Shown here in pieces: positions 6,449 to 53,674 of a stretch of 62,129 bases of DNA; position 1 is the first letter of the stretch; each line of letters begins with the position of its first letter. The notes beneath the pieces were generated by a model. It saw nothing but the letters and a program-made list of their open reading frames with translations. It searched no databases and was not told the origin of the DNA. A program made the position numbers and the translations under genes. Source of the DNA: Jiella sonneratiae (GTDB lineage: Bacteria > Pseudomonadota > Alphaproteobacteria > Rhizobiales > Rhizobiaceae). The DNA lies in NCBI RefSeq assembly GCF_017353515.1, contig NZ_JAFMPY010000027.1:1-62129 (forward strand). The letters are read 5' to 3'.

Positions 6449-6452
6449 GCGC

Positions 6453-9996: not shown

Positions 9997-10149
9997 CACG
10001 TCACGTCGGAGGGCTCGCGGCGCAGTCGTCGCCGGTGCAGGTCTGCGGCCGGCCGGGCGGGAACGATCGGCGGCGCCGGCGACGTGCCGGAATGTGAAGG
10101 CGGCCCCGACCCCGGGACCGCCCGAAGGGCGAAGCAGGAGGGACCGAGC

Positions 10150-11408: not shown

Positions 11409-11443
11409 CGATCCTGCATCGGGACCGGTCGGCCCCGTAAGGC

Positions 11444-12193
11444 TCACACGTGCTGGCCGCCGTTGATGTGCAGTTCCGAGCCGCTCACATAGCTCGACTG
11501 GGTCGAGCAGAGAAAATAGATGACGTCGGCGACTTCCGCCGTCTGGCCGAGCCGGCGCAGCGGGATGTCGTCGATCAGCTTCTCGGTCCCCGGCGACAGG
11601 ATCGCCGTCTCGATCTCTCCCGGCGCGATGGCATTCACCCGAATCCCGGCGGGGCCGAAGTCGTGGGCCATTTCCCGCGTCAGCGAGTTGAGCGCCGCCT
11701 TGGACGTCGCATAGGCGGTGCCGGCGAACGGGTGGACGCGGCTGCCGGCGATCGAGGTGACGTTGACGATCGACCCCTTGGCCTTCGACAGTTCCCGCGA
11801 CAGCCCGCGCGCCAGCATGATCGGCGCGAAGAAGTTCACCTGGAAGACGTCGCGCCACATGTGCATCGGCGTCTGGATCGAATCGAGCCGCGAGCCGCCC
11901 TGGCCCTTGGGCGAGATCGCCGCGTTGTTGACGAGGGCGTGCAGCTGCGAATCGTTTGCCTCCAGCCTGCGGCGGATCTCCGAGACGGCATAGCCGACGT
12001 CCTCCTGGTCGGAGAGGTCGACGCGGATGTGGTCCTCGGGCCCGGCCGGCCAGGGACAGTTCTCCGCGAAATCCTGGCGCGAGCAGGTGATCACCCGCCA
12101 GCCCTCGCGGGAAAATCGCTTGACCGTGGCGTGGCCGATGCCGCGGGAGGCTCCCGTCAGCACCAGGGTCTTGCGCTCGTCGCGATCGGTCAT
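11444..12193 (-). CDS. Short-chain dehydrogenase/reductase
   Basis: A 249-residue classical SDR with NAD(P) binding at LTGASRGIGHA, the NNAA motif (ALVNNAAISPKG), catalytic Ser in NVTSIAGS and YATSK. The ending (SYVSGSELHINGGQHV) is that of FabG-like enzymes. The ATG at 12193 has GGAG upstream; a longer open frame continues upstream without conservation. It is convergent with the HhH gene and divergent from the ynjB-like gene. The 205 bases between 12193 and 12398 must hold both promoters. Substrate unknown. Confidence 0.85.
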   Translation of the reverse strand: MTDRDERKTLVLTGASRGIGHATVKRFSREGWRVITCSRQDFAENCPWPAGPEDHIRVDLSDQEDVGYAVSEIRRRLEANDSQLHALVNNAAISPKGQGGSRLDSIQTPMHMWRDVFQVNFFAPIMLARGLSRELSKAKGSIVNVTSIAGSRVHPFAGTAYATSKAALNSLTREMAHDFGPAGIRVNAIAPGEIETAILSPGTEKLIDDIPLRRLGQTAEVADVIYFLCSTQSSYVSGSELHINGGQHV

Positions 12194-12397
12194 CTGGCGT
12201 CTCCGGCCGCAGGTCCCCGGCGGGGCCGCGGCGTTCGTGTGGTACTCCTGCCATCCCATAGCGGAAGCCGAAGCCGTTGGCACCGGCCCGCTCTGCCTGT
12301 TTAGGGGGCATTGCGGAGCGAAACAATTTGCCTCCGCGCGCGAAGCTATGAACACTCGGTTTCATCGGCCGAGAGGATCGACAGCCCGGGAGAGGAT

Positions 12398-13636: not shown

Positions 13637-13728
13637 GGCGAAAGGGGTGACGCAAGCGGAGCCTGCGCCATCGGCCCGTCGCGGTGCCGCCTGCCGATGC
13701 CTGTGAGGTCGACGACGGTGGTGGCCGG

Positions 13729-15426: not shown

Positions 15427-16202
15427 ACCGTCTCGCACCCATCGGCGCCGCGGCGCGCCCGGCGACGATGCGCTCCACGCCCGGTAAGGCGGAGGCCGGC
15501 GCGACGCCGGCGGGCCTCGTGCTCGACGGCGTCGAGATCCGGCTCGAAGGGCGCAGCCTGCTGGCGCTCGACCGCACCGTCCTGCCCGGCGAGACGCTGA
15601 CCGTCATGGGCCCCTCCGGCTCCGGCAAGTCGACGCTCTTCGCCTTCCTCGCCGGTTTCCTCGATCCCGCCTTCACGGCGCGGGGCAGGGTGCTCCTCGA
15701 CGGGCGCGACCTCACCGGTCTGTCGCCGCAGGCGCGGCGCGTCGGCCTGATGTTCCAGGATGCGCTGCTGTTTCCCCACATGTCGGTCGGCGGAAACCTG
15801 CTCTTTGCCGTGCCGGGGCGGGTGAAGGGCCGGAAGCTGCGCCACGCCGCCGTCGAAGCGATGCTTTCCGACGTCGGGCTCGACGGTTTCTTCGCCCGCG
15901 ATCCCGCGACGCTCTCCGGCGGCCAGGCGGCCCGGGTGGCGCTGGCGCGCACGCTCATCGCCGAACCCCGGGCGCTGCTCCTCGACGAGCCGTTCTCGCC
16001 TCTCGACCAGGCGCTCCGGGCCGCGACGCGCGACCTCGTCTTCGACCGTATCGAGGCCCGCAACATCCCGGCGATCCTCGTCACCCACGACCCGGCAGAT
16101 GCGAAGGCCGCCCGCGGCGCGATCGTCGAGATCGGCGGTGCGCAGGCCGAGCTGCAGGCGACGCCCGCCGCGGCCGCCGCCGGATCGCGGGCCGCCCGAT
16201 GA
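15423..16202 (+). CDS. YnjD-type ABC transporter ATPase
   Basis: 259 residues with Walker A GPSGSGKST, Q-loop LMFQDALLFPHMSV, ABC signature LSGGQAARVALARTL, Walker B ALLLDEPFSPLDQ, and switch histidine in ILVTHDPADA. The N-terminal 40 residues are Ala/Pro-rich and not conserved. It shares ATGA overlaps with the permease before it and with hrpB after it, so all four genes probably lie on one transcript. Confidence 0.85.
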   Translation: MNRLAPIGAAARPATMRSTPGKAEAGATPAGLVLDGVEIRLEGRSLLALDRTVLPGETLTVMGPSGSGKSTLFAFLAGFLDPAFTARGRVLLDGRDLTGLSPQARRVGLMFQDALLFPHMSVGGNLLFAVPGRVKGRKLRHAAVEAMLSDVGLDGFFARDPATLSGGQAARVALARTLIAEPRALLLDEPFSPLDQALRAATRDLVFDRIEARNIPAILVTHDPADAKAARGAIVEIGGAQAELQATPAAAAAGSRAAR

Positions 16203-37485: not shown

Positions 37486-38736
37486 ATGGCTCCGACGGAT
37501 GAAACAGAGCGGCCGACCCTCTGGCGCAACGCGCGTCTCGCCACGATGAGCGCGGGGCTTTCCGGCCTCGGCGTCGTCGAGAAGGGGGCAGTCGCAGCGG
37601 CGGGCGGGCGCATCCTCTTCGCCGGTCCGGAAGCCGAGGTGCCGCAGGCCCTCGCCGCCGGGGCCGAGACCGTCGACTGCGGGGGGCGCTGGATCACGCC
37701 GGGGCTGATCGACTGCCACACCCATCTGGTCTGGGCCGGCAACCGCGCCAAAGAGTTCGAACTGCGGCTCGCTGGGGCGAGCTACGAGGAGGTCGCGCGG
37801 GCCGGTGGCGGCATCGTCTCGTCGGTGAACGCGCTGCGCGCGGCGGGCGAGGACCGGCTTCTCGCCGAGACGCTGCCGCGGCTCGACGCGCTGATTGCCG
37901 AGGGCGTCACCACCGTCGAAGTGAAATCCGGCTACGGGCTCGACGCCGGCAACGAGGCGAAGGCGCTGAAGGTCGCGCGCCGGCTGGGCCGCGAGCGGCC
38001 CGTCTCGGTACGCACGACCTTTCTCGGCGCACACGCACTGCCGCCGGAGTTTTCCGGGGACAAGGCAGGCTTCATCGCGCGGGTGGTGGAGGAAATGCTG
38101 CCGGCGATCGCCGCCGAGGGCCTCGCCGATGCCGTCGACGGCTTCTGCGAGAAGATCGCCTTCTCGCCGGAGGAGATCGCCCGCGTCTTCGATGCCGCAA
38201 AGGCAGCGGGCCTGCCGGTGAAGCTTCATGCCGACCAGCTCTCGGACCTCTCCGGTGCGGCGCTCGCCGCACGCTACGGCGCGCTTTCGGCCGACCATCT
38301 CGAATATACCAGCGAGGCCGGCGCGGAAGCGATGGGGAAGGCCGGCACGGTCGCGGTCATGCTGCCCGGCGCCTTCTATTTCATTCGGGAGACCAAGGTC
38401 CCGCCGGTCGATGCCTTCCGCCGGCACGGCGTCGCGATGGCCGTCGCCACCGACTGCAACCCGGGAACCTCGCCGCTGACCTCGCTGCTCCTGACGATGA
38501 ACATGGCGGCGACGCTGTTCCGCCTGACCGTCGATGAATGCCTTCTCGGCGTCACCCGCAACGCCGCGCGCGCCCTCGGCCTTGCCGCCGAGACCGGGAC
38601 GCTCGAGGCCGGCAAATCCGCCGACCTCGCGATCTGGGACATCGAGAGCCCGGCCGAACTCGTCTACCGGATCGGCTTCAACCCGCTTCATGCACGCATC
38701 TGGAAGGGCCGCATCTGGAAAGGGACGGGACGATGA
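37486..38736 (+). CDS. hutI: Imidazolonepropionase HutI
   Basis: 416 residues. Hydrolyses 4-imidazolone-5-propionate to formiminoglutamate. Metal ligands and family marks: [39 protein letters not shown], and [23 protein letters not shown] precedes the ATG. The stop overlaps the hutH start (ATGA). Confidence 0.96.
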
Positions 38737-40271
38737 GCCGGATGCTGGTTCTTCAGCCGGGAAAGGTTTGCCTCGCCGACTGGCGCGCGGTCTATCGCGG
38801 CGCGGTGCCTTCGCTCGCTCCTGCGGCCTATCCGTCGATCGAGGCCTCCGCCGCCGCCGTCCGCCGGATCCTGTCCCGCGGCGAGCCGGTCTACGGCATC
38901 AACACCGGCTTCGGAAAGCTCGCCAGCGTCCGGATCGGCGCGGCGGATCTCGAAACGCTGCAGCGCAACATCGTTCTCTCCCATGCCGCGGGCGTCGGCG
39001 AGCCGATGCCGGTCGCGGTGGCGCGGCTGATGATGGCGCTGAAGCTCGCCTCGCTCGCGCAGGGTGCCTCGGGCGTCGAGCCGAAGACCGTGCGGCTCCT
39101 CGAAGCGATGCTGAAGGGCGGCCTGACGCCGGTCGTGCCCTGTCAGGGCTCGGTCGGCGCCTCCGGCGATCTGGCGCCGCTCGCCCACATGACCGCGGCG
39201 ATGATCGGCGTCGGCGAGATCGTCGCTGGAAACGAGCGCAAGCCCGCCGAGGCGGCGCTCCGCGCGGCCGGGCTCGAACCGCTGACGCTCGGGCCGAAGG
39301 AGGGGCTGGCGCTGCTCAACGGCACGCAGTTCTCGACCGCCAACGCGCTGGCCGGCCTGTTCGAGGCCGAGCGTCTGCACCAGTCCGCCCTCGTCACCGG
39401 CGCGCTGTCGACCGATGCGGGACGCGGCTCCGACACGCCCTTCGATCCGCGCATCCATGCGCTGCGCCGCCATGCCGGCCAGATCGAGACGGCGGCGGCG
39501 CTGCGCGCGCTGATGGAGGGCTCGGCGATCCGTGCCTCGCACCGGGTCGGCGACGAGCGGGTGCAGGATCCCTACTGCCTGCGCTGCCAGCCGCAGGTGA
39601 TGGGCGCGGCGCTGGATCTCCTGCGCCAGGCGGCGGCGACCCTCCAGACCGAGGCGAACGGCGTTTCCGACAATCCGCTGATCTTCGCCGACTCCGACGA
39701 GGCGCTGTCTGGCGGCAACTTTCACGCCGAGCCGGTGGCGTTTGCCGCCGACATGATCGCGCTGGCGCTCTGCGAGATCGGCTCGATCGCCGAGCGCCGC
39801 ATCTCCCTTCTGGTCGATCCCGTCCTGTCGCTGCTGCCGGCCTTCCTCACGCCGAGGCCCGGCCTCAACTCCGGCTTCATGATCCCGCAGGTGACCGCCG
39901 CGGCGCTGGTCTCGGAGAACCGGCAGCGGGCCTATCCTGCGAGCGTCGACTCGATCCCGACCTCGGCCAACCAGGAAGACCACGTCTCGATGGCCGCGCA
40001 CGGTGCGCGGCGCCTTTCGGCGATGGCCGACAACCTGTCGAACGTCGTCGCGATCGAACTTCTCGCCGCCGCGCAGGGCTGCGACCTGATCGGTGGCGGT
40101 CTCGCTTCCAGCGGCCCGCTCGAAGCCGTCCGGCGCCTCGTGCGGTCGAAGGTGCCGACGCTTCAGGACGACCGGCACTTCTCGCCCGACATCGAAGCCG
40201 CCGCCGGCCTCGTGCGCTCCGGCGCCGTCGTCGACGCCGTCGCCCCGCTGACCCTCCCGACGCTCGCCTGA
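38733..40271 (+). CDS. hutH: Histidine ammonia-lyase HutH
   Basis: 512 residues. Deaminates L-histidine to trans-urocanate. The self-forming MIO cofactor comes from the Ala-Ser-Gly in [16 protein letters not shown]. Further marks are [27 protein letters not shown] and [15 protein letters not shown]. It is translationally coupled to hutI and lies 13 bases before hutU. Confidence 0.97.
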
Positions 40272-40284
40272 GGAGCCGCTCACG

Positions 40285-41964
<1,680 letters not shown>

Positions 41965-42225: not shown

Positions 42226-42374
42226 CAGGCCAATCCCCGTGCTCCGCCCGGCTTCGAGCGATGGCCCTGGGCGCCGGGCGCAAACTTGCATGTCCTTCCA
42301 AGATGGAATAACGTTCCAGAATTGATCGCCGTTTCTCGATGGAGGAGTCGGTTCGGCGATGGGAGGATGCGATC

Positions 42375-43226
42375 ATGACTTCAGGTGTTTCGACGGCGCC
42401 CGCCGCCGCACGCCCTCGCGCGGCTCCGGCCCCTGATCCGGCGGCGCGCAGACGCAGGGCGTTGCGGACCTTGCGGCTCGTCTGCTGGAACCTGATTCCG
42501 GCGCTCACCTTCGTCATCATCATCGGCATCTGGGCAGCCGCGGTCCAGATCTTCGCGATCCCCGCCTATCTCCTGCCGGGCCCCGCCAGCGTCTTCGAGC
42601 TGTTGATCAGGGAATCCGGCATGTTGTGGCGCAACGCCCAGGTGACGCTTGCCGAGATCCTGCTCGGCTTCGGCCTGACGCTGGTCACGGCGATCCCGCT
42701 CGGCCTCGTCATCGCCCTTTCGCCGATCGCCAAGCAGGTGCTCTATCCGCCGGCAATGCTGCTGCAACTGGTGCCGAAGATCGCCATGGCGCCGCTGTTT
42801 CTCGTCTGGTTCGGCTTCGGCATGGAGTCGAAGGTCGTCTTGACCCTGCTGATGACCTTCTTCCCGCTGCTGATCGCCAGCATCAGCGGTTTCCAGATCC
42901 TCGATCAGCGGCTTCTCTACCTGACCCGCTCGATGGGCGCGTCGAAGTGGCAGACCTTCCGCTACCTCCGCGTTCCGGCCGCGCTTCCGGTGATCTTTTC
43001 CGGCGTCAAGACGTCGGCGACGATCGCCGCGACGGCCGCCATCGTGGCGGAGTTCGTCGGGGCGAACCAGGGCCTCGGCTACGTGCTTCTGAAGGGCACG
43101 AGCACGATGAACCTCGACCTGACCTTCGCGGTGCTCGTCGTCCTCACGGTGATCGGCCTCGCCATCAACTACCTGGTCGAATTCAGCGAATGGCTTCTCG
43201 CTCCCTGGCAGCGCGACGGCAAGTGA
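42375..43226 (+). CDS. NitT/TauT-type ABC permease of a catabolic cluster
   Basis: 283 residues with an Ala/Pro/Arg-rich cytoplasmic start and about six transmembrane segments. The EAA loop is LLYLTRSMGASKWQTFRYLRVPAALP, and the family ending GLGYVLLKGTSTMN follows. GGGAGG is eight bases before this ATG; an upstream ATG at 42339 is less well placed. First gene of the transport-catabolism cluster that runs to 52.6 kb. Confidence 0.88.
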   Translation: MTSGVSTAPAAARPRAAPAPDPAARRRRALRTLRLVCWNLIPALTFVIIIGIWAAAVQIFAIPAYLLPGPASVFELLIRESGMLWRNAQVTLAEILLGFGLTLVTAIPLGLVIALSPIAKQVLYPPAMLLQLVPKIAMAPLFLVWFGFGMESKVVLTLLMTFFPLLIASISGFQILDQRLLYLTRSMGASKWQTFRYLRVPAALPVIFSGVKTSATIAATAAIVAEFVGANQGLGYVLLKGTSTMNLDLTFAVLVVLTVIGLAINYLVEFSEWLLAPWQRDGK

Positions 43227-43273
43227 CGCAGCCGGGCAAAACGCTTCGTGCAAGAACAATGTGGAGGAAACGC

Positions 43274-44278
43274 ATGAGACACATCACCAAGACCCTGCTC
43301 GGGATCGGGCTCGCCGGCGCCTCGCTGCTGGCGGCGACGTCCGCCTATGCCGACACCGACGTGAAATTCCAGCTCAACTGGTATGCCGGCGGCGCCAATG
43401 CCGGCTTCGCCGCGGCTCTGCAGGAGGGCTACTACAAGGACGCCGGGCTGAACGTCACCATCATCCAGGGCAACGGTTCGGCCAATACGGCGCAGCTCGT
43501 CGCGAGCGGCCAGGCCGACCTCGCCTATGCCGACGCCGTCGCGGTCAGCCAGCTGATCGCCAAGGGCGCGCCGATGAAGGTCGTCGCCACGGTCTACCAG
43601 TCGAACCCCAACGAGGTCGAAGCTCTGAAGAGCAGCGGCATCACCTCGATCGCCGACCTGAAGGGCAAGAAGATCGGCGTCCCGGCGGGCAGCTCGCAGG
43701 TGACCATGCTGCCGCTCTTCCTCGATGCCAACAACCTCAAGGAATCCGACGTCAATCTCCTCAACATGCCGACGGCCTCGATGGTCCCGGCACTGCTGCA
43801 GAAGCAGGTGGATGCGATCCTCGGATCGGTCGACGACTACCACATCCAGCTCGACTCCCAGGGAGCGGACGTCACCGGCTTCATGTTCGCCGATCACGGC
43901 GTTCCGACGGTCAGCACCTCGATCTTCGCCAGCGAGGAGTTCATCAAGGACAATCCGGACGTTTTGAAGAAATTCATCTCCGCGAGCCTCAAGGGATGGG
44001 GCTTCGCGCTGAAGAATTCCGACCAGGCGGTCGCCGACCTGAAGAAGACCTTCCCGGATGTCGACACGAAGCTCGCCGCCCAGCAGCTCGCGGCGATCCC
44101 GCCGCTCTTCTGCAGCGGCGGCACCAAGTATATCGGCAAGGCGACCGACGCCCACTGGAGCCAGACGCAGGACCTTCTCTCGAAGGTCGGCCTTCTGCCC
44201 GAAGGCAAGGATCCGACGATGTACTACACCAACGACTACCTGCCGCCCGAGTCCGAACTCGAGCCCTGCAATCAGTGA
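43274..44278 (+). CDS. NMT1/SsuA-like ABC binding protein
   Basis: 334 residues with signal peptide (ending SAYADTDV). Mature start VKFQLNWYAGGANAGFAAALQEGYYKDAGL and QLVASGQADLAYADAVAV are typical of the NMT1/THI5/SsuA group. GGAGGA lies just before the ATG. Related proteins bind sulfonates, pyrimidine precursors, phthalate-like acids or nitrate; the catabolic genes around it suggest an organic acid. Confidence 0.87.
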   Translation: MRHITKTLLGIGLAGASLLAATSAYADTDVKFQLNWYAGGANAGFAAALQEGYYKDAGLNVTIIQGNGSANTAQLVASGQADLAYADAVAVSQLIAKGAPMKVVATVYQSNPNEVEALKSSGITSIADLKGKKIGVPAGSSQVTMLPLFLDANNLKESDVNLLNMPTASMVPALLQKQVDAILGSVDDYHIQLDSQGADVTGFMFADHGVPTVSTSIFASEEFIKDNPDVLKKFISASLKGWGFALKNSDQAVADLKKTFPDVDTKLAAQQLAAIPPLFCSGGTKYIGKATDAHWSQTQDLLSKVGLLPEGKDPTMYYTNDYLPPESELEPCNQ

Positions 44279-44346
44279 CGTTTGGTGAAACGAGGCCGGT
44301 CCCCGCCACGGCGGGGCCGGCAGCAGAGAGTGAGAGGCGGACGAAG

Positions 44347-44868
44347 TTGAGCGTCAGAACCTCATACCGCTACGAAGACCTTTACGAGGGGCTTCGCTTT
44401 CGCAGCCCGGGCCGGACGATCACCGACGCCGATCTCGTCGGCTTCGCCGGCCTCACCGGCGACTTTTCGGAGCTGCATACGAGCGACGTCTATGCAGAGA
44501 GCAGCCAGTTCGGCCGGCGGGTCGCCCACGGGATGCTCGGTCTCGCCTATGCCCACGGCCTGATGTGGGCCCGCACCGGCGAGTTGCGGGAGACGGCGAT
44601 CGCCTTTCTCGGCATCGCCGACTGGCGCTTCGTCGGACCGATCTTCGTCGGCGACACGATCTTCGTGAACTACACCCTCGCCGAGCTTCGCGACAGCCGC
44701 TCGAAGCCGACGCAGGCGATCGCGACCTTCGACGTGGAGCTCGTCAAACAGGACGGCTCTCTGGTGCAGAAGGGGCGCAAGGCCCTGCTGGTCTCGAAGG
44801 TCCCGCTGCAGGCGATGTCCGCGTCCTCGGCAAGGAGCGGCTCGCAGAATGAGACGAGGAACACATGA
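44347..44868 (+). CDS. MaoC-type (R)-hydratase / dehydratase
   Basis: 173 residues, hot-dog fold. The catalytic pattern is GLTGDFSELHTSDVYA, with the Asp-x5-His pair of MaoC hydratases, followed by GRRVAHGMLGLA. They hydrate trans-2-enoyl-CoA compounds or dehydrate hydroxyacyl-CoA esters. TTG start with GAGAGGCGG seven bases upstream. Its stop overlaps the ATPase start (ATGA): a catabolic enzyme is thus inserted inside the importer operon. Confidence 0.85.
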   Translation: MSVRTSYRYEDLYEGLRFRSPGRTITDADLVGFAGLTGDFSELHTSDVYAESSQFGRRVAHGMLGLAYAHGLMWARTGELRETAIAFLGIADWRFVGPIFVGDTIFVNYTLAELRDSRSKPTQAIATFDVELVKQDGSLVQKGRKALLVSKVPLQAMSASSARSGSQNETRNT

Positions 44869-45695
44869 CGGCCAGCGCACACGATGCCGCAGTCCCCGGT
44901 GTGCCGATCGCGATCGACAACGTCTCGAAGGTCTTCGGCGAGGGCACCGAAAAGCCGTTCCAGGCGCTGAAGCCGATCACCACCGACATCGCGCCCGGCG
45001 AGTTCGTCTCGGTCGTCGGCGCGTCGGGCTGCGGCAAGAGCACCCTGATGCTCATGGTGGCCGGCCTCCTTGCCAGGTCGAGCGGGACGATCACCGTCGC
45101 CGGCCGGACCGTAACGAAGCCGATCACCGACATCGGCATCGCCTTTCAGGACCACCTGCTCCTCGACTTCCGCACCGCCCTGCAGAACGTCATGCTGCAT
45201 GCCGACATCCGCAAGCTGCCGCACAAGGACATCGAGGCGCGGGCGCGCGAGCTCTTCGGCCAGCTCAATCTCGAGCACGCGATGAACAAGTATCCGCGGC
45301 AGCTCTCCGGCGGCATGCGCCAGCGGGTGTCGCTGATCCGCAGCCTCGTCCACGACCCGTCGCTGCTCCTGATGGACGAGCCGTTCGGCGCCCTCGACGC
45401 GCTGACCCGGCTGCAGGTCCGCACCGATCTCGAATCGCTCTGGATGCGCCGCAGGCCGACGGTCCTCTTCATCACCCACAGCGTCGAGGAGGCGGTCGGC
45501 CTGTCGGACCGGATCCTCGTCATGAGCCCCAGTCCCGGCGAGGTGATCGAGGACATCCGGGTGGAACTGCCGCGCCCGCGCCCGATCGTGCTCGGCGATG
45601 CGCCGGAGTTCTCCGCCTATGTCGATCGCATCCACCGCCACTTCGAGCGTCTCGGCATCCTGCACGGGCTCGGAACCCTGCCGAAGGCCGGGTGA
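44865..45695 (+). CDS. NitT/TauT-type ABC ATPase
   Basis: 276 residues: GASGCGKSTLMLMVAGL, AFQDHLLLDFRTAL, LSGGMRQRVSLIRSLV, LLLMDEPFGALDALT, FITHSVEEAV. Completes the importer with the permease and binding protein encoded upstream. Translationally coupled to the MaoC gene. Confidence 0.9.
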   Translation: MTASAHDAAVPGVPIAIDNVSKVFGEGTEKPFQALKPITTDIAPGEFVSVVGASGCGKSTLMLMVAGLLARSSGTITVAGRTVTKPITDIGIAFQDHLLLDFRTALQNVMLHADIRKLPHKDIEARARELFGQLNLEHAMNKYPRQLSGGMRQRVSLIRSLVHDPSLLLMDEPFGALDALTRLQVRTDLESLWMRRRPTVLFITHSVEEAVGLSDRILVMSPSPGEVIEDIRVELPRPRPIVLGDAPEFSAYVDRIHRHFERLGILHGLGTLPKAG

Positions 45696-45707
45696 GGAGC
45701 GCGGAGG

Positions 45708-46517
45708 ATGAGTGACGAATCCGAGGATCGCGGCGAAGAAGGCGATCGGCTCTGCACGCTGTCGCTGCGTGGGGCGATCGCCGAAATCACGCTTTGCAGC
45801 GGCCCGCTGAATCTGGTGACGCGGCCGTTCCTGCGGCAGCTGAACGCCCATTTGCGGACGCTCGCCGACCGCACCGACATTCGCTGCGTCATCCTCCACG
45901 GCGGCGCGGGGCGGGCCTTCTGCGCCGGCAGCGACATCCGCGAGTTCGAGGCTCTGCGGGATGGGACTGCGAGCGAACGCAAGATCCTCTTCGAGGACAT
46001 GGTGCTGCGCTCGCTGGCGTTGCTGCCGGTGCCGACGATCGCGGCGATCGACGCGCCGGCCTTCGGGGGCGGCCTCGAACTGGCGCTGGCCTGCGACATC
46101 CGGGTGCTGAAGGCGGGGATCGGGATCGGCCTCACGGAATCGCGGCTCGGCGGGCTTGCCGGCAACGGGGCGGTGCGCCTCGCAAGGCTCGTCGGCCCGG
46201 CACGGGCGAAGGAGATGCTGTTCACCGGCATGGTCGTCGACGCCGCGACCGCGCTCGACTGGGGCATCGTCAACAGCCTCGCCGAGACCGGATCGGCGCT
46301 GGATCGAGCCCGCACGATGGCTGCGACGATCGCCGGGCGCGGTCCGGTCTCAAATCGGCTCGCCAAGCGGCTCGTCGACGCCGCGCTCGACGAGCCGCTG
46401 GACGCGGCCCTGGCACGCTCCACTCGGGCGCAGCAGCAGATTTTCGATTCGGCCGATCTCCACGAGGGAGCCGCCGCCTTCTTCGCCAAGCGCGAGCCGG
46501 AGTTCACGAACGGATGA
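45708..46517 (+). CDS. Enoyl-CoA hydratase/isomerase family protein
   Basis: 269 residues, crotonase fold. The oxyanion-hole region is present (FCAGSDIREFEAL) and the second glycine motif reads APAFGGGLELALACDIRV. At the usual catalytic Glu positions it has ITESRLGGLAGNGAVRLARLVG-like sequence (GIGLTESRLGGLAGNGA), with Glu retained in the second position. Lies 12 bases after the ATPase gene. Acts on a CoA thioester; the specific reaction is open. Confidence 0.87.
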   Translation: MSDESEDRGEEGDRLCTLSLRGAIAEITLCSGPLNLVTRPFLRQLNAHLRTLADRTDIRCVILHGGAGRAFCAGSDIREFEALRDGTASERKILFEDMVLRSLALLPVPTIAAIDAPAFGGGLELALACDIRVLKAGIGIGLTESRLGGLAGNGAVRLARLVGPARAKEMLFTGMVVDAATALDWGIVNSLAETGSALDRARTMAATIAGRGPVSNRLAKRLVDAALDEPLDAALARSTRAQQQIFDSADLHEGAAAFFAKREPEFTNG

Positions 46518-46638
46518 GGACGCACGAGACGGCGGACCGCCCGCAGCCCGGCGCCGACCGGCGACGCTGCATCGAAGCGCAGGCCGAGATCGGCCGGAGC
46601 CTGCGCATTGCCGGCGCCCTCGACCATGGAGTGGTGAG

Positions 46639-47514
46639 ATGACACATGTTCCCGCCGAGCGCTGCCTTTCGATCATCCAGCTCCTCGCCGACAGCGCCGC
46701 CGACATGCCGCTCGGGGAGATCGCGGAGCGGCTGAACCTTCCCAAGAGCGGAGCCCACCGCCTTCTAACGACTCTCGTCGAGGAGGGTTGGGCGAAGAAG
46801 GATGCGCAGACCGGCTTCTACGGTCTGACCATGCGGCTGGTCATCCTCGGGCAGCGCTTCTACGTCGCCTCCGGCATTCCGGACATCTGCCAGCCGCTGC
46901 TCGACCAGCTTGCGGCGGCGTCGCGGGAATTCGTGCGGCTGGCGGTGGTGGATTCCAACGCGCTGGTCTGGGTGGCCCAGGCGCAGGGGGCGCGGGCCGG
47001 GCTGATGTACCAGCCCTCGACAGCCGCCGCGACGGTGCCGCTTCATGCGACGGCGAGCGGCAAAGCGTGGCTGTCGACGCTGCCGCTCGACCGGGCGATC
47101 GAGATCGTGCTCGCCACCGGCGGGTTCGAGAACGCCGAAGCCTACGGGCCGAACGTCATGCGTTCCGTCGCCGAGCTCATCGAGGAACTCGCGGCGACGG
47201 CCGCACGCGGCTACGGGCGGGTCATGAACGAGGCGGAGCCCGGCGTGACCGCTCTCGCCGCGGTGATCCGCTCGGGCAGCACCGGCCCGGTCGCCGCGAC
47301 GGTCAGCATCGCCGGACCGAGCGTGCGGATGACGGACGCGCGGGTGCAGGATCTCGCCCCGCTCGTCACCGCCTGTGCCGCCGAACTCTCCGACCTCTGG
47401 CCGCTGCGCCTTGGAACCGACTACCCGCCCAATGCCGAGCGGACGCGGGGGAGGGCGCCGCAGCCCGGCCGGGAAGAGGGCGAGGACGGCCGGCAACGCC
47501 TGCGTGCCGGGTAG
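46639..47514 (+). CDS. IclR-family transcriptional regulator
   Basis: 291 residues. N-terminal helix-turn-helix MPLGEIAERLNLPKSGAHRLLTTL, C-terminal effector domain with HATASGKAWLSTLP and AEPGVTALAAVIRSG. IclR proteins usually control nearby aromatic-acid, glyoxylate or sugar-acid pathways. Encoded inside the cluster in the same direction, so it may be autoregulated. The last 40 residues are Arg/Gly-rich and not conserved. Confidence 0.9.
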   Translation: MTHVPAERCLSIIQLLADSAADMPLGEIAERLNLPKSGAHRLLTTLVEEGWAKKDAQTGFYGLTMRLVILGQRFYVASGIPDICQPLLDQLAAASREFVRLAVVDSNALVWVAQAQGARAGLMYQPSTAAATVPLHATASGKAWLSTLPLDRAIEIVLATGGFENAEAYGPNVMRSVAELIEELAATAARGYGRVMNEAEPGVTALAAVIRSGSTGPVAATVSIAGPSVRMTDARVQDLAPLVTACAAELSDLWPLRLGTDYPPNAERTRGRAPQPGREEGEDGRQRLRAG

Positions 47515-47596
47515 CAAAGACGATCGTCGACACCAGCGCCGAGGACACGGCGCCGTCGCCGCCGTCGCGGGACAGTTCGGGAAGGACATCGGGAAA

Positions 47597-49204
47597 ATGC
47601 AGGTCATCGATTCGGCACAGGCTGCAAGCCTCATCCGGAATGGCGACAATCTCCTCGTCAGCGGATCGGGCGGCGGCCACTGCGTGCCGCAGGCGCTTCT
47701 CGACGCGGTCGAGAAACGCTTCCTCGATACGGGCGAGCCGAAGGACCTCTGTCTCGTCCATGCCGTCGGGATCGGCGATCGCAAGTTGAAGGGCGCCGCC
47801 TGCTTCCGTCACCCCGGCATGCTGAGACGCAGCGTGACGAGCGCGCTGATCGACTCGCCGCCGCTGATCGAGCTCGCCCGCCGCAACGAGATCGAGTCCT
47901 ACACCCTGCCGCAGGGCGTCATCGCCCAGCTCGTCCGCGAGATGGCGGCCGGGCGCCCCGGCCTGATCACCAAGACCGGCCTTCACACCTTCGTCGATCC
48001 GCGCCAGCTCGGCGCCCGGCAGAGCGAGAGCGCCCGCGAGGATCTGGTGGAACTGCTCGAGGTCGCCGGCGAGGAATGGCTCCGCTTCAAGCCGCTGCCG
48101 CTCGACGTCGTCTTCCTGCGCGGCACGACCGCCGACGAGGACGGCAACGTCTCGATGGAGCAGGAGGCGATTCCCGGCGAGATGCTGTCCTGCGCCCAGG
48201 CGGCCCGGCGCCAGGGCGCCGCGGTCGTGGTTCAGGTCAAGCGTCTGGCCGAGCGGCGCGGCCTGAAGGCGCGCGAGGTCAAGATCCCCGGCATCCTCGT
48301 CGACTACGTGGTGGTCGACCCCGGGCAGCGGCAGACCTATGCCAGCGACTACGATCCGAGCTATTCGGGCGAACTGCGGGTGCCGCTTGCCTCGATGGCG
48401 AAGCTTCCCTTCTCGGTCCGCAAGATCGTGGCGCGCCGCGCGGCGTTCGAACTGCGCAAGGGCGCCGTCTGCAACCTCGGAGCCGGCATCTCGACCGGCG
48501 TCTCCTCCGTGGCGGCGGAGGAGGGCGTCCTCGGCGACATCGTGCTGACCAACGAGCAGGGCTATATCGGCGGTGCGCCGCTGACCGGCGTCGATTCCGG
48601 CGCGGCCCAGAACTTTTCGGCCGTCGTCGACCAGCCCTACCAGTTCGACTTCTACGACGGCGGCGGCCTTGACATCGCCTTCCTCTCGTTTGCCGAGGTC
48701 GATCCGGCGGGCAACGTCAATGTCAGCCGGTTCGGCGACAAGATCGTCGGCATCGGCGGCTTCGTGAACATCAGCCAGAACGCCCGCAAGGTGGTGTTCA
48801 GCGGCACCTTCACCTCCGGCGGGCTGGAGGTCGAATGCGCCGGCGGCAGGCTCGCCATCCGTCAGGAGGGGCGGCACCGCAAGTTCGTCTCCGGCATCGA
48901 GCAGATCTGCTACAACTCGCAATTCGCCCTTCGCCAGGGGCGCGGCGCCGCCTTCGTCACCGAGCGGGCGGTCTTCGACGTCTCGCCGGACGGCCTGAGG
49001 CTGATCGAGATCGCCCCGGGCATCGATCTCGAACGCGACGTCGTCGGCCAGATGGCCTTCCGCCCGGCGATCGCCGGCGACCTTAAGATCATGGATGCTC
49101 GGCTGTTTTCGCCGGAGCCGATGCGACTCGGTCCGGACCTCGACGCGGCCCCGTCGGGCCATCGCAGGCCGCGCCGGACGCTGGACGGGCAGGGCACCGG
49201 CTGA
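47597..49204 (+). CDS. CoA-transferase (propionate/acetate CoA-transferase type)
   Basis: 535 residues, the fused alpha-beta class I CoA-transferase form. The N-terminal half has NGDNLLVSGSGGGHCVPQALLDAVE. The C-terminal half carries the active-site Glu in VLTNEQGYIGGAPLTG, where the thioester intermediate forms. It moves CoA from acetyl-CoA or another acyl-CoA to the pathway acid and is the likely activating step of the cluster. ATG chosen because the family N-terminus starts there. Confidence 0.87.
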   Translation: MQVIDSAQAASLIRNGDNLLVSGSGGGHCVPQALLDAVEKRFLDTGEPKDLCLVHAVGIGDRKLKGAACFRHPGMLRRSVTSALIDSPPLIELARRNEIESYTLPQGVIAQLVREMAAGRPGLITKTGLHTFVDPRQLGARQSESAREDLVELLEVAGEEWLRFKPLPLDVVFLRGTTADEDGNVSMEQEAIPGEMLSCAQAARRQGAAVVVQVKRLAERRGLKAREVKIPGILVDYVVVDPGQRQTYASDYDPSYSGELRVPLASMAKLPFSVRKIVARRAAFELRKGAVCNLGAGISTGVSSVAAEEGVLGDIVLTNEQGYIGGAPLTGVDSGAAQNFSAVVDQPYQFDFYDGGGLDIAFLSFAEVDPAGNVNVSRFGDKIVGIGGFVNISQNARKVVFSGTFTSGGLEVECAGGRLAIRQEGRHRKFVSGIEQICYNSQFALRQGRGAAFVTERAVFDVSPDGLRLIEIAPGIDLERDVVGQMAFRPAIAGDLKIMDARLFSPEPMRLGPDLDAAPSGHRRPRRTLDGQGTG

Positions 49205-49277
49205 GCGGGGCCGTCCGCGACGAGAACCGAAGGTCAGCCGCTTCCGGCTGTGATCCCAAGACGAGGAAAGTCCGACA

Positions 49278-50162
49278 ATGAAGCTCTTCCGCCATGGCCC
49301 GCAGGGGCAGGAACGTCCCGGCATCGTCGACGGCGAGGGGAACCCCAGGGATCTTTCGGGGGTGGTCCGCGACATCGACGCGTCCGTCCTGGGCGCTTCC
49401 GGCCTCGACGCGTTGCGGGCCCTCGATCTCGCCGCGCTGCCGGTTCTGGACGCCGGCATCCGTTACGGCGTTCCGGTCGCGACCGTCCCGAACCTCGTCT
49501 GCATCGGCCTCAACTACACCGACCACGCCGAGGAGACGAACGCACCGATCCCCTCGCAGCCGATCATCTTCAACAAGCATACCGGGGCGCTCTGCGGCGC
49601 CAACGACCCGGTGATCCTGCCGGCCGGCTCCACCAAGCTCGACTGGGAGGTGGAACTCGCCTTCGTCGTCGGAACCCCCTGCTGGGACGTGCCGGAAGAC
49701 CGCGCGCTCGATTATGTCGCCGGCTTCTGCGTGTTGAACGATCTCTCCGAGCGCGAATTCCAGCTGGAACGCGAAGGGCAGTGGACGAAGGGCAAGAGTT
49801 TCCCGACCTTCGCGCCCTGCGGCCCGTGGCTGGTGACGCGCGACGAGATCGCCGACGTGCAGGATCTCGACCTGTGGCTCGACCTCAACGGCAACAGGGT
49901 GCAGACCGGCACGACGCGGCGGATGATCTTCACCTGCGCGCACATCGTCTCCTATGTCAGCCGCTACATGGCGCTGCAGCCGGGCGACATCATCACCACC
50001 GGAACCCCGCCGGGCGTCGGCCTCGGCGCCGTCCCGCCGGTCTTCATGAAGGCCGGCGACGTGATGCGGCTCGGCATCACCGGGCTCGGGGAACAGGAAC
50101 AGCGCCTCGTTCCCTATGCGCCGCAGATGGCGCGCCGCTGGGAAGCGCGCGGCGCGGCCTGA
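49278..50162 (+). CDS. Fumarylacetoacetate hydrolase family protein
   Basis: 294 residues. FAH fold: IGLNYTDHAEETNAPIP, the metal-binding LDWEVELAFVVGTPC (Glu, Glu) and DYVAGFCVLNDLSEREFQ (Asp), then TGTPPGVGLG. These enzymes cleave C-C bonds of 1,3-dicarbonyl acids or decarboxylate and isomerise oxo-acids. GAGGAAAG precedes the ATG. Follows the CoA-transferase by 73 bases in the same direction. Confidence 0.9.
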   Translation: MKLFRHGPQGQERPGIVDGEGNPRDLSGVVRDIDASVLGASGLDALRALDLAALPVLDAGIRYGVPVATVPNLVCIGLNYTDHAEETNAPIPSQPIIFNKHTGALCGANDPVILPAGSTKLDWEVELAFVVGTPCWDVPEDRALDYVAGFCVLNDLSEREFQLEREGQWTKGKSFPTFAPCGPWLVTRDEIADVQDLDLWLDLNGNRVQTGTTRRMIFTCAHIVSYVSRYMALQPGDIITTGTPPGVGLGAVPPVFMKAGDVMRLGITGLGEQEQRLVPYAPQMARRWEARGAA

Positions 50163-50279
50163 CCGGTTTTGTCGGGGCCCGGCCCGGCCGGCGCCGGATC
50201 GACACATCGGGCGACGGATCGAGACCCGGGCGGCGGCCGCATCGAGCGGCGAGACCTATCGGATCGGATGGAGGGCGGC

Positions 50280-51008
50280 ATGGCGATGCTGGGAGACGGC
50301 GTTCTGGCCATTTGGAACGGCATCGAGCCGGACGCCGAGGTCGAGTTCCTGAACTGGCACGTGCGCGAGCACATTCCCGAGCGGGTGTCGATCGAGGGGT
50401 TCCTGCGCGGGCGGCGCTACGTCGCGCTCGACGGCGAGCCGAAATATTTCAACTTCTACGAGACGGCGCGGCCCGATGACCTCGCCTCGCCGGCCTATCA
50501 GGCGGAACTCGATCGTCCCTCGGAATGGACGTCCCGCGTCGTGCGCGCCTTCCGGGACACGTCGCGGACGGCCTGCCGCGTCGCGTGGACGGCGGGCATC
50601 GGCGAGGGGAGCGTCGTCGAGACGCTGCGGCTCGGCGCACAGGCGGAACCCGAAGGCTTTGCCCGGCGCCTCGAAGCTGCGCTGCTCGCGCCGCTCGCCG
50701 CACACCCGCGCGTCGTCGGCGTCCACCTTTTGCAGGGCGAGCGCGACAGCGGCGGCGAGACCGCCGAGATGCGCCTGCGCGGCGGCCGCGACGAGGTGGC
50801 GGCCTGGATCCTCCTCGTCGAGACGCTCACCCAGGACGCCGTTGCCGCCCTGCGCGCCGATCTCCTCGGCGAGGAGCATCTCGCCCGCTGCGGCATTGCG
50901 GGCGCCATCCGACGCGGCAGCTACGTCCTGCAATACGGCCTGTCGCGCGCCGAACTCGACCGCCGCGGGCTGCGGCCGATCGACGAGCGCCGGCGGCGCC
51001 GGCCGTGA
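50280..51008 (+). CDS. Unrecognised protein with WHxREHIPER motif
   Basis: 242 residues, soluble. The N-terminus reads LAIWNGIEPDAEVEFLNWHVREHIPERVSIEGF then RGRRYVALDGEPKYFNFYE. This resembles dimeric alpha-beta barrel (EthD/DUF4286-like) proteins found beside catabolic enzymes. The C-terminal half (about 130 to 230) repeats a similar alpha/beta pattern, so it may be a two-module protein. No catalytic role can be stated. Its stop overlaps the GTG of the SDR gene. Starts at 50265 or 50286 are also possible. Confidence 0.75.
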   Translation: MAMLGDGVLAIWNGIEPDAEVEFLNWHVREHIPERVSIEGFLRGRRYVALDGEPKYFNFYETARPDDLASPAYQAELDRPSEWTSRVVRAFRDTSRTACRVAWTAGIGEGSVVETLRLGAQAEPEGFARRLEAALLAPLAAHPRVVGVHLLQGERDSGGETAEMRLRGGRDEVAAWILLVETLTQDAVAALRADLLGEEHLARCGIAGAIRRGSYVLQYGLSRAELDRRGLRPIDERRRRRP

Positions 51009-51790
51009 GCGCGGCTCTCCCGAAGAAGAGCTCATCCAGGGGCACGGTGCTGGTCACCGGCGGTGGCTCGGGAATCGGCCATGCGACGGCGCAGCTTCTG
51101 CGCGCCTCGGGGTTCGACGTCGCGACCGCCGGCCCGAACGAGGCGCCGGCCGGCTGGCTCGACCCGGCTCCGCCGGGCGCCGGCCGCGCCGGCCACTTCC
51201 TCTTCGACCTCGCGGAGACCGCGGCGCACGGGCCGCTGCTCGACCGGATCGAGCAAGAGTTCGGCCCGATCACCTGTCTCGTCAACAATGCCGGCGTCAC
51301 GTCGCTCGTGCGCGGCGACCTGCTCGACCTTTCCCCCGAGAGCTTCGACCGGTCGGTCGCGGTCAATCTGCGCGGCACCTTCTTCCTGACCCAGGCGCTC
51401 GCCCGCCGTTTCCTCGCGCGGCCCGAGGACCGGGCGCGGAGCATCGTGACGATCACCTCGGTCAATGCCCAGATCGTCGGCGAGAATCGCGGCGACTTCT
51501 GCATGACCAAGGCCGGCCTTTCGATGATGGTCGCGCTCTTCGCCTCGCGCCTCGCCGATGCGGGAATTCCGGTCTTCGAGATCCGCCCCGGGATCATCGC
51601 CACGGCCATGACCGAACCCGCGCGCGAGTGCTACACGGCCTTCATCGGGAGCGGCGGGGTGCCGGCCGGCCGCTGGGGTACGGCGGAGGACGTCGCGAGG
51701 GCCGTGCTGACGCTGGTCGCGGGCGGGCTGCCCTATGCGACCGGTATCCGGCTCGAGATCGCCGGCGGAATGCAGATTCACCGGGTCTGA
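51005..51790 (+). CDS. SDR-fold protein with Phe in place of the catalytic Tyr
   Basis: 261 residues. NAD(P) motif VLVTGGGSGIGHATA, CLVNNAGVTS and the structural NLRGTFF are normal. The active-site line is TSVNAQIVGENRGDFCMTKAGL: Ser152 and Lys169 are in place, but the Tyr expected at position 165 is Phe (codon TTC at 51497). The spacing is exact, so this looks like a true substitution. It may be inactive as a classical dehydrogenase or use another residue. GTG start overlapping the previous stop. Confidence 0.85.
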   Translation: MSAALPKKSSSRGTVLVTGGGSGIGHATAQLLRASGFDVATAGPNEAPAGWLDPAPPGAGRAGHFLFDLAETAAHGPLLDRIEQEFGPITCLVNNAGVTSLVRGDLLDLSPESFDRSVAVNLRGTFFLTQALARRFLARPEDRARSIVTITSVNAQIVGENRGDFCMTKAGLSMMVALFASRLADAGIPVFEIRPGIIATAMTEPARECYTAFIGSGGVPAGRWGTAEDVARAVLTLVAGGLPYATGIRLEIAGGMQIHRV

Positions 51791-51835
51791 CCCTCGGTTC
51801 AAGGTTTTCGGTTCTCGGCTCGAAGGAGAAACGGC

Positions 51836-52645
51836 ATGACCATCAGCGGAAAGACCAGGATTTTTGCGATCGTCGGCGATCCGATCGTCCAGGCGCGCAC
51901 GCCGGCATTGCTGAATCCGATGCTCGCCGCGGCGGGCATCGACGCCGTCCTGCTGCCGTTCCACGTTCCGGCCGCCTCTTTCGCCATGATGATGCCGGCG
52001 CTCAAGGCGATGGCCAATCTGGACGGGCTGGTGGTGACCTATCCGTTCAAGGAGCGGGCGCTCGCCCACGTCGACGTGGCCAGCGACCGCGCCCGCATGC
52101 TGGGTGTCGTCAACGCGATGCGCCGGCGCGCGGACGGGGGCTGGGAGGGCGACATGTTCGACGGCATCGGGCTCCTTGCTCCCGTCGAGGCCCGGCGCCC
52201 CGTCGCCGGCGCCAAGGTGCTGCTGATCGGCGCCGGCGGGGCGGGGCGCGCCATCGCGGTCGCCTTCGCCGCGGCCGGCGCGGCGTCGATCGCCGTATCC
52301 GACCTCGACGCGGCGCGGGAAGCCTCCCTCGCCGCCCTGATCGAAGCGAATTTCCCGACGTGCGGGGCAAGGCGCGGCTGCGACGGCGTCGGTTCCTATG
52401 ACATCGTCGTCAACGCGACGACGCTCGGCATGAAGCCCGGCGATCCGCCGCCGATCGCTCTGACGGAGCTGCAGCCGTCGACGCTCGTCGCGGACGTCGT
52501 GCCGTCGGATCGGCCGACGGCGTTCCTGACGGCGGCTTCGGAGAAGGGTGCCGCGACGGTGGCGGGCCACGAAATGACGAAGGGACAGGCGAAGGTGCTT
52601 ATGCAGTTTCTGACGGCGAACCTTCCAGCCGCTTCGGAACGATAG
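51836..52645 (+). CDS. Shikimate/quinate dehydrogenase-like protein
   Basis: 269 residues with the AroE layout: N-terminal substrate domain, then NAD(P) domain (VLLIGAGGAGRAIAVAF). The catalytic pair is kept, Lys72 in VTYPFKERAL and Asp109 in DMFDGIG. The substrate motif, normally HSxSP, reads QARTP: Ala20 and Thr22 replace the two serines that hold the shikimate carboxylate. Thr at the second position is known in quinate-type enzymes, but Ala at the first is unusual. A catabolic substrate other than shikimate is likely. AAGGAGA precedes the ATG. Confidence 0.85.
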   Translation: MTISGKTRIFAIVGDPIVQARTPALLNPMLAAAGIDAVLLPFHVPAASFAMMMPALKAMANLDGLVVTYPFKERALAHVDVASDRARMLGVVNAMRRRADGGWEGDMFDGIGLLAPVEARRPVAGAKVLLIGAGGAGRAIAVAFAAAGAASIAVSDLDAAREASLAALIEANFPTCGARRGCDGVGSYDIVVNATTLGMKPGDPPPIALTELQPSTLVADVVPSDRPTAFLTAASEKGAATVAGHEMTKGQAKVLMQFLTANLPAASER

Positions 52646-52798: not shown

Positions 52799-53674
52799 AT
52801 GGCCGCAACGCTTCAGGGTAAGACCATCTTCATGTCCGGCGGTTCGCGCGGCATCGGCCTCGCGATCGCGCTGCGGGCGGCGCGCGACGGCGCCAACGTC
52901 GTCGTCGCGGCAAAGACCGACCAGCCGCATCCCAAGCTTCCCGGCACGATCCACACCGCGGTGGAGGAGATCGAAAAGGCCGGCGGACGGGGCCTCGCCG
53001 TCCTCTGCGACATCCGCGACGACGCCCAGGTGGAGGCTGCGGTCGAAAAGACGGTCGAGCGTTTCGGCGGGATCGACGTGTGCATCAACAACGCCTCGGC
53101 GATCCAGCTCACCGACACGCTGTCGACCGACATGAAGCGCTACGACCTGATGAACGGCGTGAACGCCCGCGGCACCTTCCTCGTCTCCAAATGCTGCATT
53201 CCGCATCTGCAGAAGGCCGAGAACCCGCACATTCTGACGCTGTCGCCGCCGCTCGACATGCAGGCGAAGTGGTTTGCCGGCCACGTCGCCTATTCGATGG
53301 CGAAGTTCGGCATGTCGATGGTGACGCTGGGCCTTGCGGAGGAACTGAAGGCCGACGGAATCGCCGTCAACTCGCTCTGGCCGCTGACGGTGATCGACAC
53401 GGCTGCCGTGCGCAACGTCCTCGGCGGGGCGCCGCTGGCGGCGATGAGCCGCTCGGCCGACATCGTCGCCGACGCCGCCCATGCGATCCTCACCAAGCCG
53501 TCGCGCAGCTTCACCGGCCGCTTCCTGATCGACGAGCTGGTGCTGATGGAGGAGGGCGCCACCGACTTCGCCCCCTACGGCCCGGAGAACGGCGTGCCGA
53601 TGGCCGATTTCTTCGTGCCGGACGAAGCCTTCGAGAAGGCCGCGACCAAGGTGAGGCGCCAGCCGGCAGGCTGA
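52799..53674 (+). CDS. HSDL2-like SDR family oxidoreductase
   Basis: 291 residues. MSGGSRGIGLAIALRAARDGANVVVAAKTDQPHPKL is the marked N-terminus of the hydroxysteroid dehydrogenase-like 2 group, followed by VCINNASAIQLTDT and catalytic VAYSMAKFGMSM. The C-terminal part is longer than in FabG-type enzymes. Eukaryotic homologues act on fatty acyl metabolism. A palindromic operator stands just upstream, and an acyl-CoA ligase lies convergently downstream, both fitting lipid catabolism. Confidence 0.88.
   Translation: MAATLQGKTIFMSGGSRGIGLAIALRAARDGANVVVAAKTDQPHPKLPGTIHTAVEEIEKAGGRGLAVLCDIRDDAQVEAAVEKTVERFGGIDVCINNASAIQLTDTLSTDMKRYDLMNGVNARGTFLVSKCCIPHLQKAENPHILTLSPPLDMQAKWFAGHVAYSMAKFGMSMVTLGLAEELKADGIAVNSLWPLTVIDTAAVRNVLGGAPLAAMSRSADIVADAAHAILTKPSRSFTGRFLIDELVLMEEGATDFAPYGPENGVPMADFFVPDEAFEKAATKVRRQPAG

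Follow-up and report, generated by a model that had tools for sequence, protein, structure and literature searches.

A rare eleven-gene cluster of Jiella sonneratiae that may serve the uptake and breakdown of a polyhydroxy acid

Gene content of the locus

We analysed a 62,129-nucleotide stretch of DNA from Jiella sonneratiae (contig NZ_JAFMPY010000027.1; hereafter the window), which belongs to a 5.15-Mb draft genome in 76 contigs. Between positions 42375 and 52645 the window holds eleven genes, all on the + strand and head to tail. They encode a NitT/TauT-type ABC importer with a MaoC-like protein inserted between its binding protein and its ATPase, an enoyl-CoA hydratase (ECH), an IclR-family regulator, a family I CoA-transferase, a hydrolase of the FAH family, a protein which we call WHX, a short-chain dehydrogenase/reductase (SDR1) and an AroE-like dehydrogenase (Table 1). 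Families were assigned with Pfam and NCBIfam, and they agree, as do gene order and direction, with an initial annotation made from the sequence letters alone, which had proposed a transport and catabolism cluster for an acid. Here we suggest that these genes could form an operon that imports a polyhydroxy (sugar-type) acid and degrades it via a variant of the non-phosphorylative Route III, a reading which we favour but hold tentatively, at somewhat less than even confidence.

Table 1. Features of the locus, with positions in the window and the basis of each assignment
Feature	Position	Strand	Basis
Proposed IclR operator, palindrome TGGAATAACGTTCCA	42304..42318	+	sequence and relatives
NitT/TauT-type ABC permease	42375..43226	+	PF00528 E 6.9e-30
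NMT1/SsuA-type substrate-binding protein	43274..44278	+	PF09084 E 1.1e-53; TIGR01728 108.7 bits, below cut-off 163.5
MaoC-like hydratase/dehydratase	44347..44868 (annotatable from GTG 44275)	+	PF01575 E 1.1e-19
NitT-type ABC ATPase	44865..45695	+	Pfam
Enoyl-CoA hydratase (ECH)	45708..46517	+	PF00378 E 9.8e-41; E124, E144 present
IclR-family regulator	46639..47514	+	PF01614, PF09339; best NCBIfam BhcR 126 of 350 bits
Family I CoA-transferase, YdiF/FadX type, fused alpha-beta	47597..49204	+	PF01144; FadX 422 of 750 bits; PDB 2ahu YdiF E 1.7e-131
FAH-family 2,4-diketo-3-deoxy acid hydrolase (predicted)	49278..50162	+	NF053535 398 of 500 bits; PDB 8gsr
WHX protein (WHxxEHIPER; WHxREHIPER in the initial annotation)	50286..51008 (alternative start 50268)	+	no family match
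SDR dehydrogenase (SDR1)	51005..51790	+	NF009386 290 bits, above cut-off 250; PDB 4da9 E 4.6e-57
AroE-like dehydrogenase	51836..52645	+	under listed AroE cut-offs; PDB 4k28 E 2.8e-39, 7cok E 4.6e-30

Consecutive genes overlap at the MaoC/ATPase junction (ATGA, 44865-44868) and at the WHX/SDR1 junction (GTGA, 51005-51008). The first of these overlaps, which had been read as coupling the inserted gene to the importer, is real but not general among orthologues. The MaoC gene probably starts at TTG 44347, clear of the binding-protein stop, and not at GTG 44275, which overlaps it, because similarity to orthologues begins near the former. The insertion itself stands: permease, binding protein, MaoC and ATPase follow one another in this order in all 15 loci that have a window-type MaoC. 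A search for consensus promoters gave nothing promoter-like, and terminator-like sites were fewer than in shuffled sequences.

Conservation and distribution

A collection of species genomes was scanned with a WHX profile, and the best 80 of 148 relatives were kept. Those with a CoA-transferase of at least 50% identity together with WHX were defined as core loci, which number 34 of 81 (33 of the best 80, plus L022). Identity thresholds for gene presence were set by hand and, since WHX served to pick the loci, its presence in them carries no evidential weight. L041, L043, L044, L076 and L157 each have ten of the eleven proteins, SDR1 being the exception, and the set without SDR1 recurs in Bradyrhizobium, Azospirillum, Rhizobium and one genome retrieved by MaoC alone; this recurrence indicates that the gene set is not a chance assembly. 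The genome retrieved by MaoC and not by WHX (L157) has the set from permease to AroE in a single direction and with the upstream palindrome described below. A partial set is present in Bosea and Aureimonas, the Bosea loci being without FAH within the stretch. Sequence identity in the compared loci is lowest for some AroE (about 34%) and highest for some MaoC (87%).

A search with MaoC only (E <=1e-45) matched 2 of 347 genomes in a sample of the order, 1 of 385 in the class and 1 of 398 in the phylum, with the genome of J. sonneratiae counted in each. These few matches, together with the lack of SDR1 in L157, lead us to conclude from sequence comparison that the putative operon is real, rare and patchy, and that SDR1 is not part of its core. 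The conservation on which the initial annotation depended is therefore found, for the set without SDR1. Among the papers listed by literature searches on parts of the set, none appears to describe the eleven-gene combination.

The transporter is interchangeable: the NitT-type ABC importer gives way to TctABC in L022, L074, L077, L082 and L088 and to an MFS transporter in L064, L069, L071, L072 and L080. One copy of the operon (L076/L140, NZ_CP087976.1) is plasmid-borne; it keeps the window order minus SDR1 and continues into DenD and Otn genes. Frame changes, whether from decay or from sequencing error, interrupt many of the genes in this copy.

Palindromes and regulation

A perfect palindrome, TGGAATAACGTTCCA, lies 72 bp 5' of the permease start, and recurs before the permease, identical or with one or two bases changed, in L041, L043, L044, L076 and L157. 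Of 16 ABC-type loci, five (the window, L041, L043, L044 and L076) have the TGGAANNNNNTTCCA palindrome 5' of the permease, and it is found again in L157; a slightly looser TGGAANNNNNTTCCA form averaged 0.064 in shuffled sequences and never exceeded 2. Eight of these 16 loci, window included, carry an IclR gene (identity at least 36%), and the TGGAANNNNNTTCCA site accompanies it in five of the eight, against none of the eight others. The three Bosea loci (L054, L065 and L073) have the IclR gene, lack the TGGAANNNNNTTCCA site and carry a different palindrome instead. When the rest of the genome was searched for the pattern TGGAATANCNTTCCA with at most one mismatch there was no second copy, and hence no wider regulon was found. 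The proposal that the eleven genes constitute one operon under IclR control, with the palindrome as operator, is made jointly with the Route III reading and shares its single, cautious estimate.

A second, LacI-type palindrome is present in 27 of the 30 core loci with a LacI-like gene versus none of the four without one, counts made with a pattern derived from some of the same loci; the total in each of 20 shuffled sets was 0 or 1. Both palindrome shuffles preserve base composition only. In L064, L074, L077, L082 and L088, LacI-type sites lie both near the divergent start of CoA-transferase and MaoC and near the first transporter gene, and they therefore link transporter and enzymes independently of gene order. 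These shared sites, along with the conservation of a rare gene set, bear out the earlier idea of a unit for transport and catabolism of an acid.

The FAH hydrolase, the AroE-like enzyme and a fork at the 2-keto-3-deoxy acid

The best PDB match of the FAH protein is the L-2,4-diketo-3-deoxyrhamnonate hydrolase 8gsr (E 1.9e-92, residues 2-277 of 294). A His83/Glu86 pair is reported for a Herbaspirillum Route III hydrolase (PMC6336799). Its counterparts in the window protein, H83 and E86, are placed by alignment with 8gsr and are at least 90% conserved among 18 sequences. An FAH-family 2,4-diketo acid hydrolase with a His/Glu pair, which is what Route III calls for, is thus present at the level of sequence, and a C-C cleaving step by FAH, as initially suggested, is well supported by this match. 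The decarboxylation offered at the time as an alternative, and the phthalate-like substrate named as a candidate, find no support: a search of the eleven genes for a thiolase, CoA-lyase, acyl-CoA dehydrogenase or oxygenase found none.

As described in two reports, catabolism divides at the 2-keto-3-deoxy acid, which is either cleaved by an aldolase (Route I) or handled by a 4-dehydrogenase followed by an FAH hydrolase (Route III) (PMC6336799, PMC11199699). Judged by their gene content, the 34 core loci look like this same fork. AroE is present in 27 of them, FAH in 18 and both in 17, so that 17 of the 18 FAH loci also have AroE. A DHDPS-type aldolase gene is present in four (L047, L052, L058 and L080; a recheck with seven queries returned the same four), of which none has AroE (p 0.00075) and none has FAH (p 0.039), these p values, and the one below, being too small because the core loci are related by descent. 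The four would fit the Route I side.

Known Route III systems (LRA5/LRA6, FucF/FucG and C785_RS13675/C785_RS20550, acting on L-rhamnose, L-fucose and pentoses) share with the window an FAH-family hydrolase with the His/Glu pair and a cluster plan in which dehydrogenases, transporter and regulator stand together. They differ in possessing an acid-sugar dehydratase, a sugar 1-dehydrogenase and a lactonase, none of which was recognised among the window's eleven genes; the window has a CoA-transferase, MaoC, ECH, the AroE-like enzyme and WHX instead. In known cases the 4-dehydrogenase of Route III is an SDR, whereas SDR1 of the window fits another model and AroE co-occurs better. Because the 34 loci resemble the fork, the AroE-like enzyme may be regarded as a candidate 2-keto-3-deoxy acid 4-dehydrogenase. 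There is also a chemical argument, in that the hemiketal form of a 2-keto-3-deoxy acid resembles quinate around the carbon to be oxidised.

The AroE-like protein belongs to the fold family of shikimate dehydrogenase (4k28, 7cok) and conserves T68, K72, N93, D109 and Q251 (at least 90% in 21 sequences), of which we take K72 and D109 to be the catalytic Lys and Asp. It falls under the curated AroE cut-offs listed (best 146.5 bits versus 252) and is changed at the positions that bind the carboxylate in shikimate dehydrogenase. This mixture bears on a different possibility, also raised at the outset, that the substrate is an alicyclic polyol acid of a quinate- or cyclitol-like kind, whose ring hydroxyl would be oxidised by the AroE-like enzyme before the ring opens and FAH cuts the chain. 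Retention of Lys72, Asp109, Asn93 and Gln251 keeps that reading alive, as does the occurrence of WHX in an Aminobacter gene set (L161, see below) that looks inositol-like by comparison with iol genes. We nevertheless judge it unlikely: the residues presumed to bind the shikimate carboxylate in the E. coli enzyme are altered (Ser to Ala, Ser to Thr, Asn to Val and Thr to Phe), the sugar enzyme 5-ketofructose reductase (7cok) ranks second among the PDB matches of the AroE-like protein, and on chemical grounds retro-aldol opening of dehydroquinate yields no tetronate.

Fate of the second cleavage product

Genes of the D-erythronate pathway (DenD, OtnI, OtnK and OtnC) lie near the core in some relatives. 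DenD is present in 11 of the 34 core loci, ten of which have FAH (p 0.0026), the exception (L056) being truncated where its contig ends. The cut-off was applied to the DenD of six loci, and all six exceed it (L044, L056, L064, L074, L082 and L088); four more are assigned by similarity alone and that of L140, on the same plasmid stretch as L076, by its annotation name. OtnK exceeds its curated cut-off in 5 of 34 loci (L040, L057, L064, L082 and L088), where 0.056 loci would be expected from 24 such matches in 61 genomes, although the loci are not independent; counted by similarity it is present in six, the sixth (L076) being broken (244.5 of 350 bits). OtnI of L057 is marginally under its cut-off (319.6 of 325). 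All four genes are above curated cut-offs in L064, on one strand after CoA-transferase and AroE. These comparisons indicate that D-erythronate genes adjoin the core more often than expected, and a tetronate outcome of the FAH step is moderately supported. In J. sonneratiae itself an OtnI/C/K set is located on another contig. The view that no described pathway has this set is accordingly half right: the FAH step matches the published Route III (PMC6336799, PMC11199699), and D-erythronate genes join in some relatives, while the exact combination did not appear among the papers listed by the literature searches.

The same neighbourhood admits another idea, which we think improbable, that a tetronate or another C4 acid is itself imported and that the core serves a stereoisomer or ester closed to the DenD-Otn route. 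The DenD and Otn genes near the core in several loci agree with it, but by chemical reasoning a C4 chain is too short for FAH to cut into pyruvate and a hydroxy acid, and DenD was not found in 23 of the 34 loci, nor OtnK in 28. SDR1 was considered as a general partner of FAH and rejected, since none of the 34 core loci holds both (SDR1 in 9, FAH in 18).

CoA-transferase and hydratases

The early steps are harder to place. The CoA-transferase keeps E320, D63 and H68 of MaoC (numbered from GTG 44275) are conserved in nine aligned sequences, and E124 and E144 of ECH in eleven; we take all of these to be catalytic positions. CoA activation coupled to hydratases with catalytic-type residues is also what a beta-oxidation-type pathway would display. 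The genes might on that account encode an ordinary CoA-thioester pathway, with activation by the CoA-transferase, hydration by MaoC and ECH, oxidation by SDR1 to a beta-keto thioester and cleavage, leaving FAH and AroE as a side branch. SDR1 scores above the cut-off of a 3-ketoacyl-ACP reductase model, and PanE and SDR1 occur together in six loci without FAH. The missing thiolase, acyl-CoA dehydrogenase and CoA-lyase argue against such a pathway, as does the distribution of SDR1, which went undetected in 25 of the 34 loci (AroE is present in 27 and FAH in 18) and is absent from L157; we give it a low probability.

Route III would require an acid-sugar dehydratase, and none was recognised among the eleven genes with Pfam or NCBIfam. 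Four plasmid loci (L141, L142, L158 and L160) have WHX and an FAH protein (58-63% identical) and no match to the CoA-transferase or MaoC; by the product names in their records, a gene for a 2-keto-4-pentenoate hydratase adjoins FAH in all four, and L141 and L160 additionally have a gene of the altronate-dehydratase family. In the genome of J. sonneratiae, two further stretches (L020 and L021) combine a CoA-transferase and MaoC with a DHDPS-family gene. The dehydratase genes in loci without CoA-transferase and MaoC, together with L020 and L021, suggest that the CoA-transferase with MaoC, perhaps with ECH, may carry out the dehydration in place of an acid-sugar dehydratase.

The first of the two stretches (L020, G000:C76:1-20000, about 8735-17535) encodes a CUT1-type sugar ABC transporter, a DHDPS-family protein, a MaoCb-like MaoC, a LacI-like regulator, a family III CoA-transferase and an SDR. 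The second (L021, G000:C41:1-14000, about 397-12168) has a family I CoA-transferase (49% identical) beside MaoC, with the DHDPS gene on the opposite strand; as we read them, its further genes encode a TRAP-like transporter, a tautomerase-like protein and a CoA-ligase-like protein.

Taken further, this idea becomes a catalytic CoA cycle that replaces a metal-dependent dehydratase. MaoC would remove the beta-hydroxyl of an aldonyl-CoA, leading to the 2-keto-3-deoxy acid, and the CoA of the product thioester would be transferred by the CoA-transferase to a fresh sugar-acid molecule. FldA-FldBC and CaiB-CaiD are CoA-transferase/dehydratase cycles of a comparable kind; they share with the window the pairing of a CoA-transferase with an enzyme that removes or adds water. 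They differ from it in that the window has a MaoC fold, a family I transferase and a proposed polyhydroxy-acid substrate, and its cycle is a proposal. The full version, in which the AroE-like enzyme and not an SDR makes the 2,4-diketo acid and WHX is a new barrel enzyme, is a long shot in our estimation. If true, the same logic of CoA-transferase, MaoC and aldolase would run in two more clusters of the genome.

The WHX protein

WHX has no Pfam or NCBIfam match under 1e-3, and its plasmid-borne relatives are recorded as DUF4286 family protein or hypothetical protein. Its own score against DUF4286 (PF14114) is 13.9 bits, short of the gathering cut-off of 25.8, and 9 of 13 WHX members match PF14114 at E values up to 5 (best 0.0047). 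Among 55 sequences, Trp24, His25, His29, Arg33, Tyr58, Glu59, Tyr71, Trp81 and further residues do not vary, and Glu28 hardly does. We read a confident AlphaFold model (pLDDT 94.3, pTM 0.90) as two ferredoxin-like halves, a predicted tandem barrel. The best Foldseek match is an anthrone-oxidase-like protein (5f9p, TM 0.63, 17% identity), followed by putative monooxygenases, sulfur oxygenase reductases and bacterial chalcone isomerase, chemistries so diverse that the fold leaves the reaction of WHX undecided. A search of PDB sequences with the WHX profile gave two chance-level matches only. The RhaM/FucM sugar mutarotases (PF05336), which we assume to share the general fold class of WHX, were tried as relatives and rejected (hhalign against 14 sequences, probability 0.2%).

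On an Aminobacter plasmid (L161, 6162-16199), WHX lies among genes for two thiamine-pyrophosphate-binding proteins, a Gfo/Idh protein, a sugar isomerase/epimerase, an aldehyde dehydrogenase, a cupin and an IclR regulator. A second WHX branch is formed by L089 and similar loci (among L092-L100 and L107-L114); many of its members are divergent from IclR and NitT ABC genes, often with an SDR, and no core-type CoA-transferase or FAH matches are found nearby.

Proposed pathway

From gene families and order, the palindromes, the conserved FAH residues and co-occurrence we infer every reaction of the following scheme, which returns to the Route III variant. The NitT importer would take up the acid, onto which the CoA-transferase would load CoA. 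MaoC with ECH would dehydrate or re-hydrate the thioester, and transfer of its CoA to a further substrate molecule would leave a 2-keto-3-deoxy acid. The AroE-like enzyme would then oxidise the C4 hydroxyl on the ring (hemiketal) form, whose C2(OH,COOH)-C3H2-C4(OH) pattern mimics C1-C2-C3 of quinate. Hydrolysis of the 2,4-diketo acid by FAH would release pyruvate along with a hydroxy acid of shorter chain, perhaps a tetronate, which SDR1 in the window or DenD in relatives, and then OtnI-OtnK-OtnC, would convert to dihydroxyacetone phosphate and CO2. A place for WHX may lie close to the 2-keto-3-deoxy/2,4-diketo stage, where it could be an isomerase. What emerges would be a route of familiar type run by an uncommon combination of enzymes, the WHX family included, in which the CoA part is the least settled.

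A number of observations weigh against this scheme. The FAH protein misses the cut-off of its nearest curated model (NF053535, L-2,4-diketo-3-deoxyrhamnonate hydrolase) with 398.4 of 500 bits. The apparent fork is blurred, in that L047 and L058 are alike and not independent, the aldolase genes of L052 lie about 7 kb from WHX, and 10 of the 27 loci with AroE are without FAH in the stretch; beyond the core loci, a DHDPS-like gene accompanies AroE in L116 and, as a weak match (22% identity), in L098. The 34 loci are, besides being related, in several cases cut by contig ends. The window's pair of SDR1 and FAH has no counterpart in the core loci, and DenD, OtnI, OtnK and OtnC are all missing from the eleven window genes. 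If the product is a tetronate, the 2-keto-3-deoxy acid would need seven carbons, and we know of no common natural source of such an acid. Finally, the MaoC relatives of L128, L130 and L133 are clustered with mutarotase and SDR genes and with FAH or dehydratase-like ones, while no match to a family I CoA-transferase was found there; in such clusters, therefore, MaoC need not act on CoA thioesters and may have another kind of substrate. Only 12 of the many MaoC places were fetched. The neighbours in these three loci include a rhamnose/fucose mutarotase and an LRA6-like FAH, and a fuconate-dehydratase-like protein according to our reading of the sequence.

The scheme offers a testable role for a family named only DUF4286 family or hypothetical protein in plasmid records, and points to AroE-like enzymes as possible 2-keto-3-deoxy acid dehydrogenases. 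It also raises the question of whether CoA thioesters are used for sugar-acid dehydration and, if true, would give acid-sugar catabolism a further branch in alphaproteobacteria and Burkholderiales.

Neighbouring genes

On the 5' side the nearest genes are hutI-hutH-hutU (37486-41964), followed by a gap of about 0.4 kb before the putative operon. On the 3' side lie a separate SDR gene of the PRK08278 subfamily (52799-53674) and, convergent with the operon on the - strand, an acyl-CoA synthetase gene (PRK08162, 53873-55507); there is no sign that either is a member of the operon.

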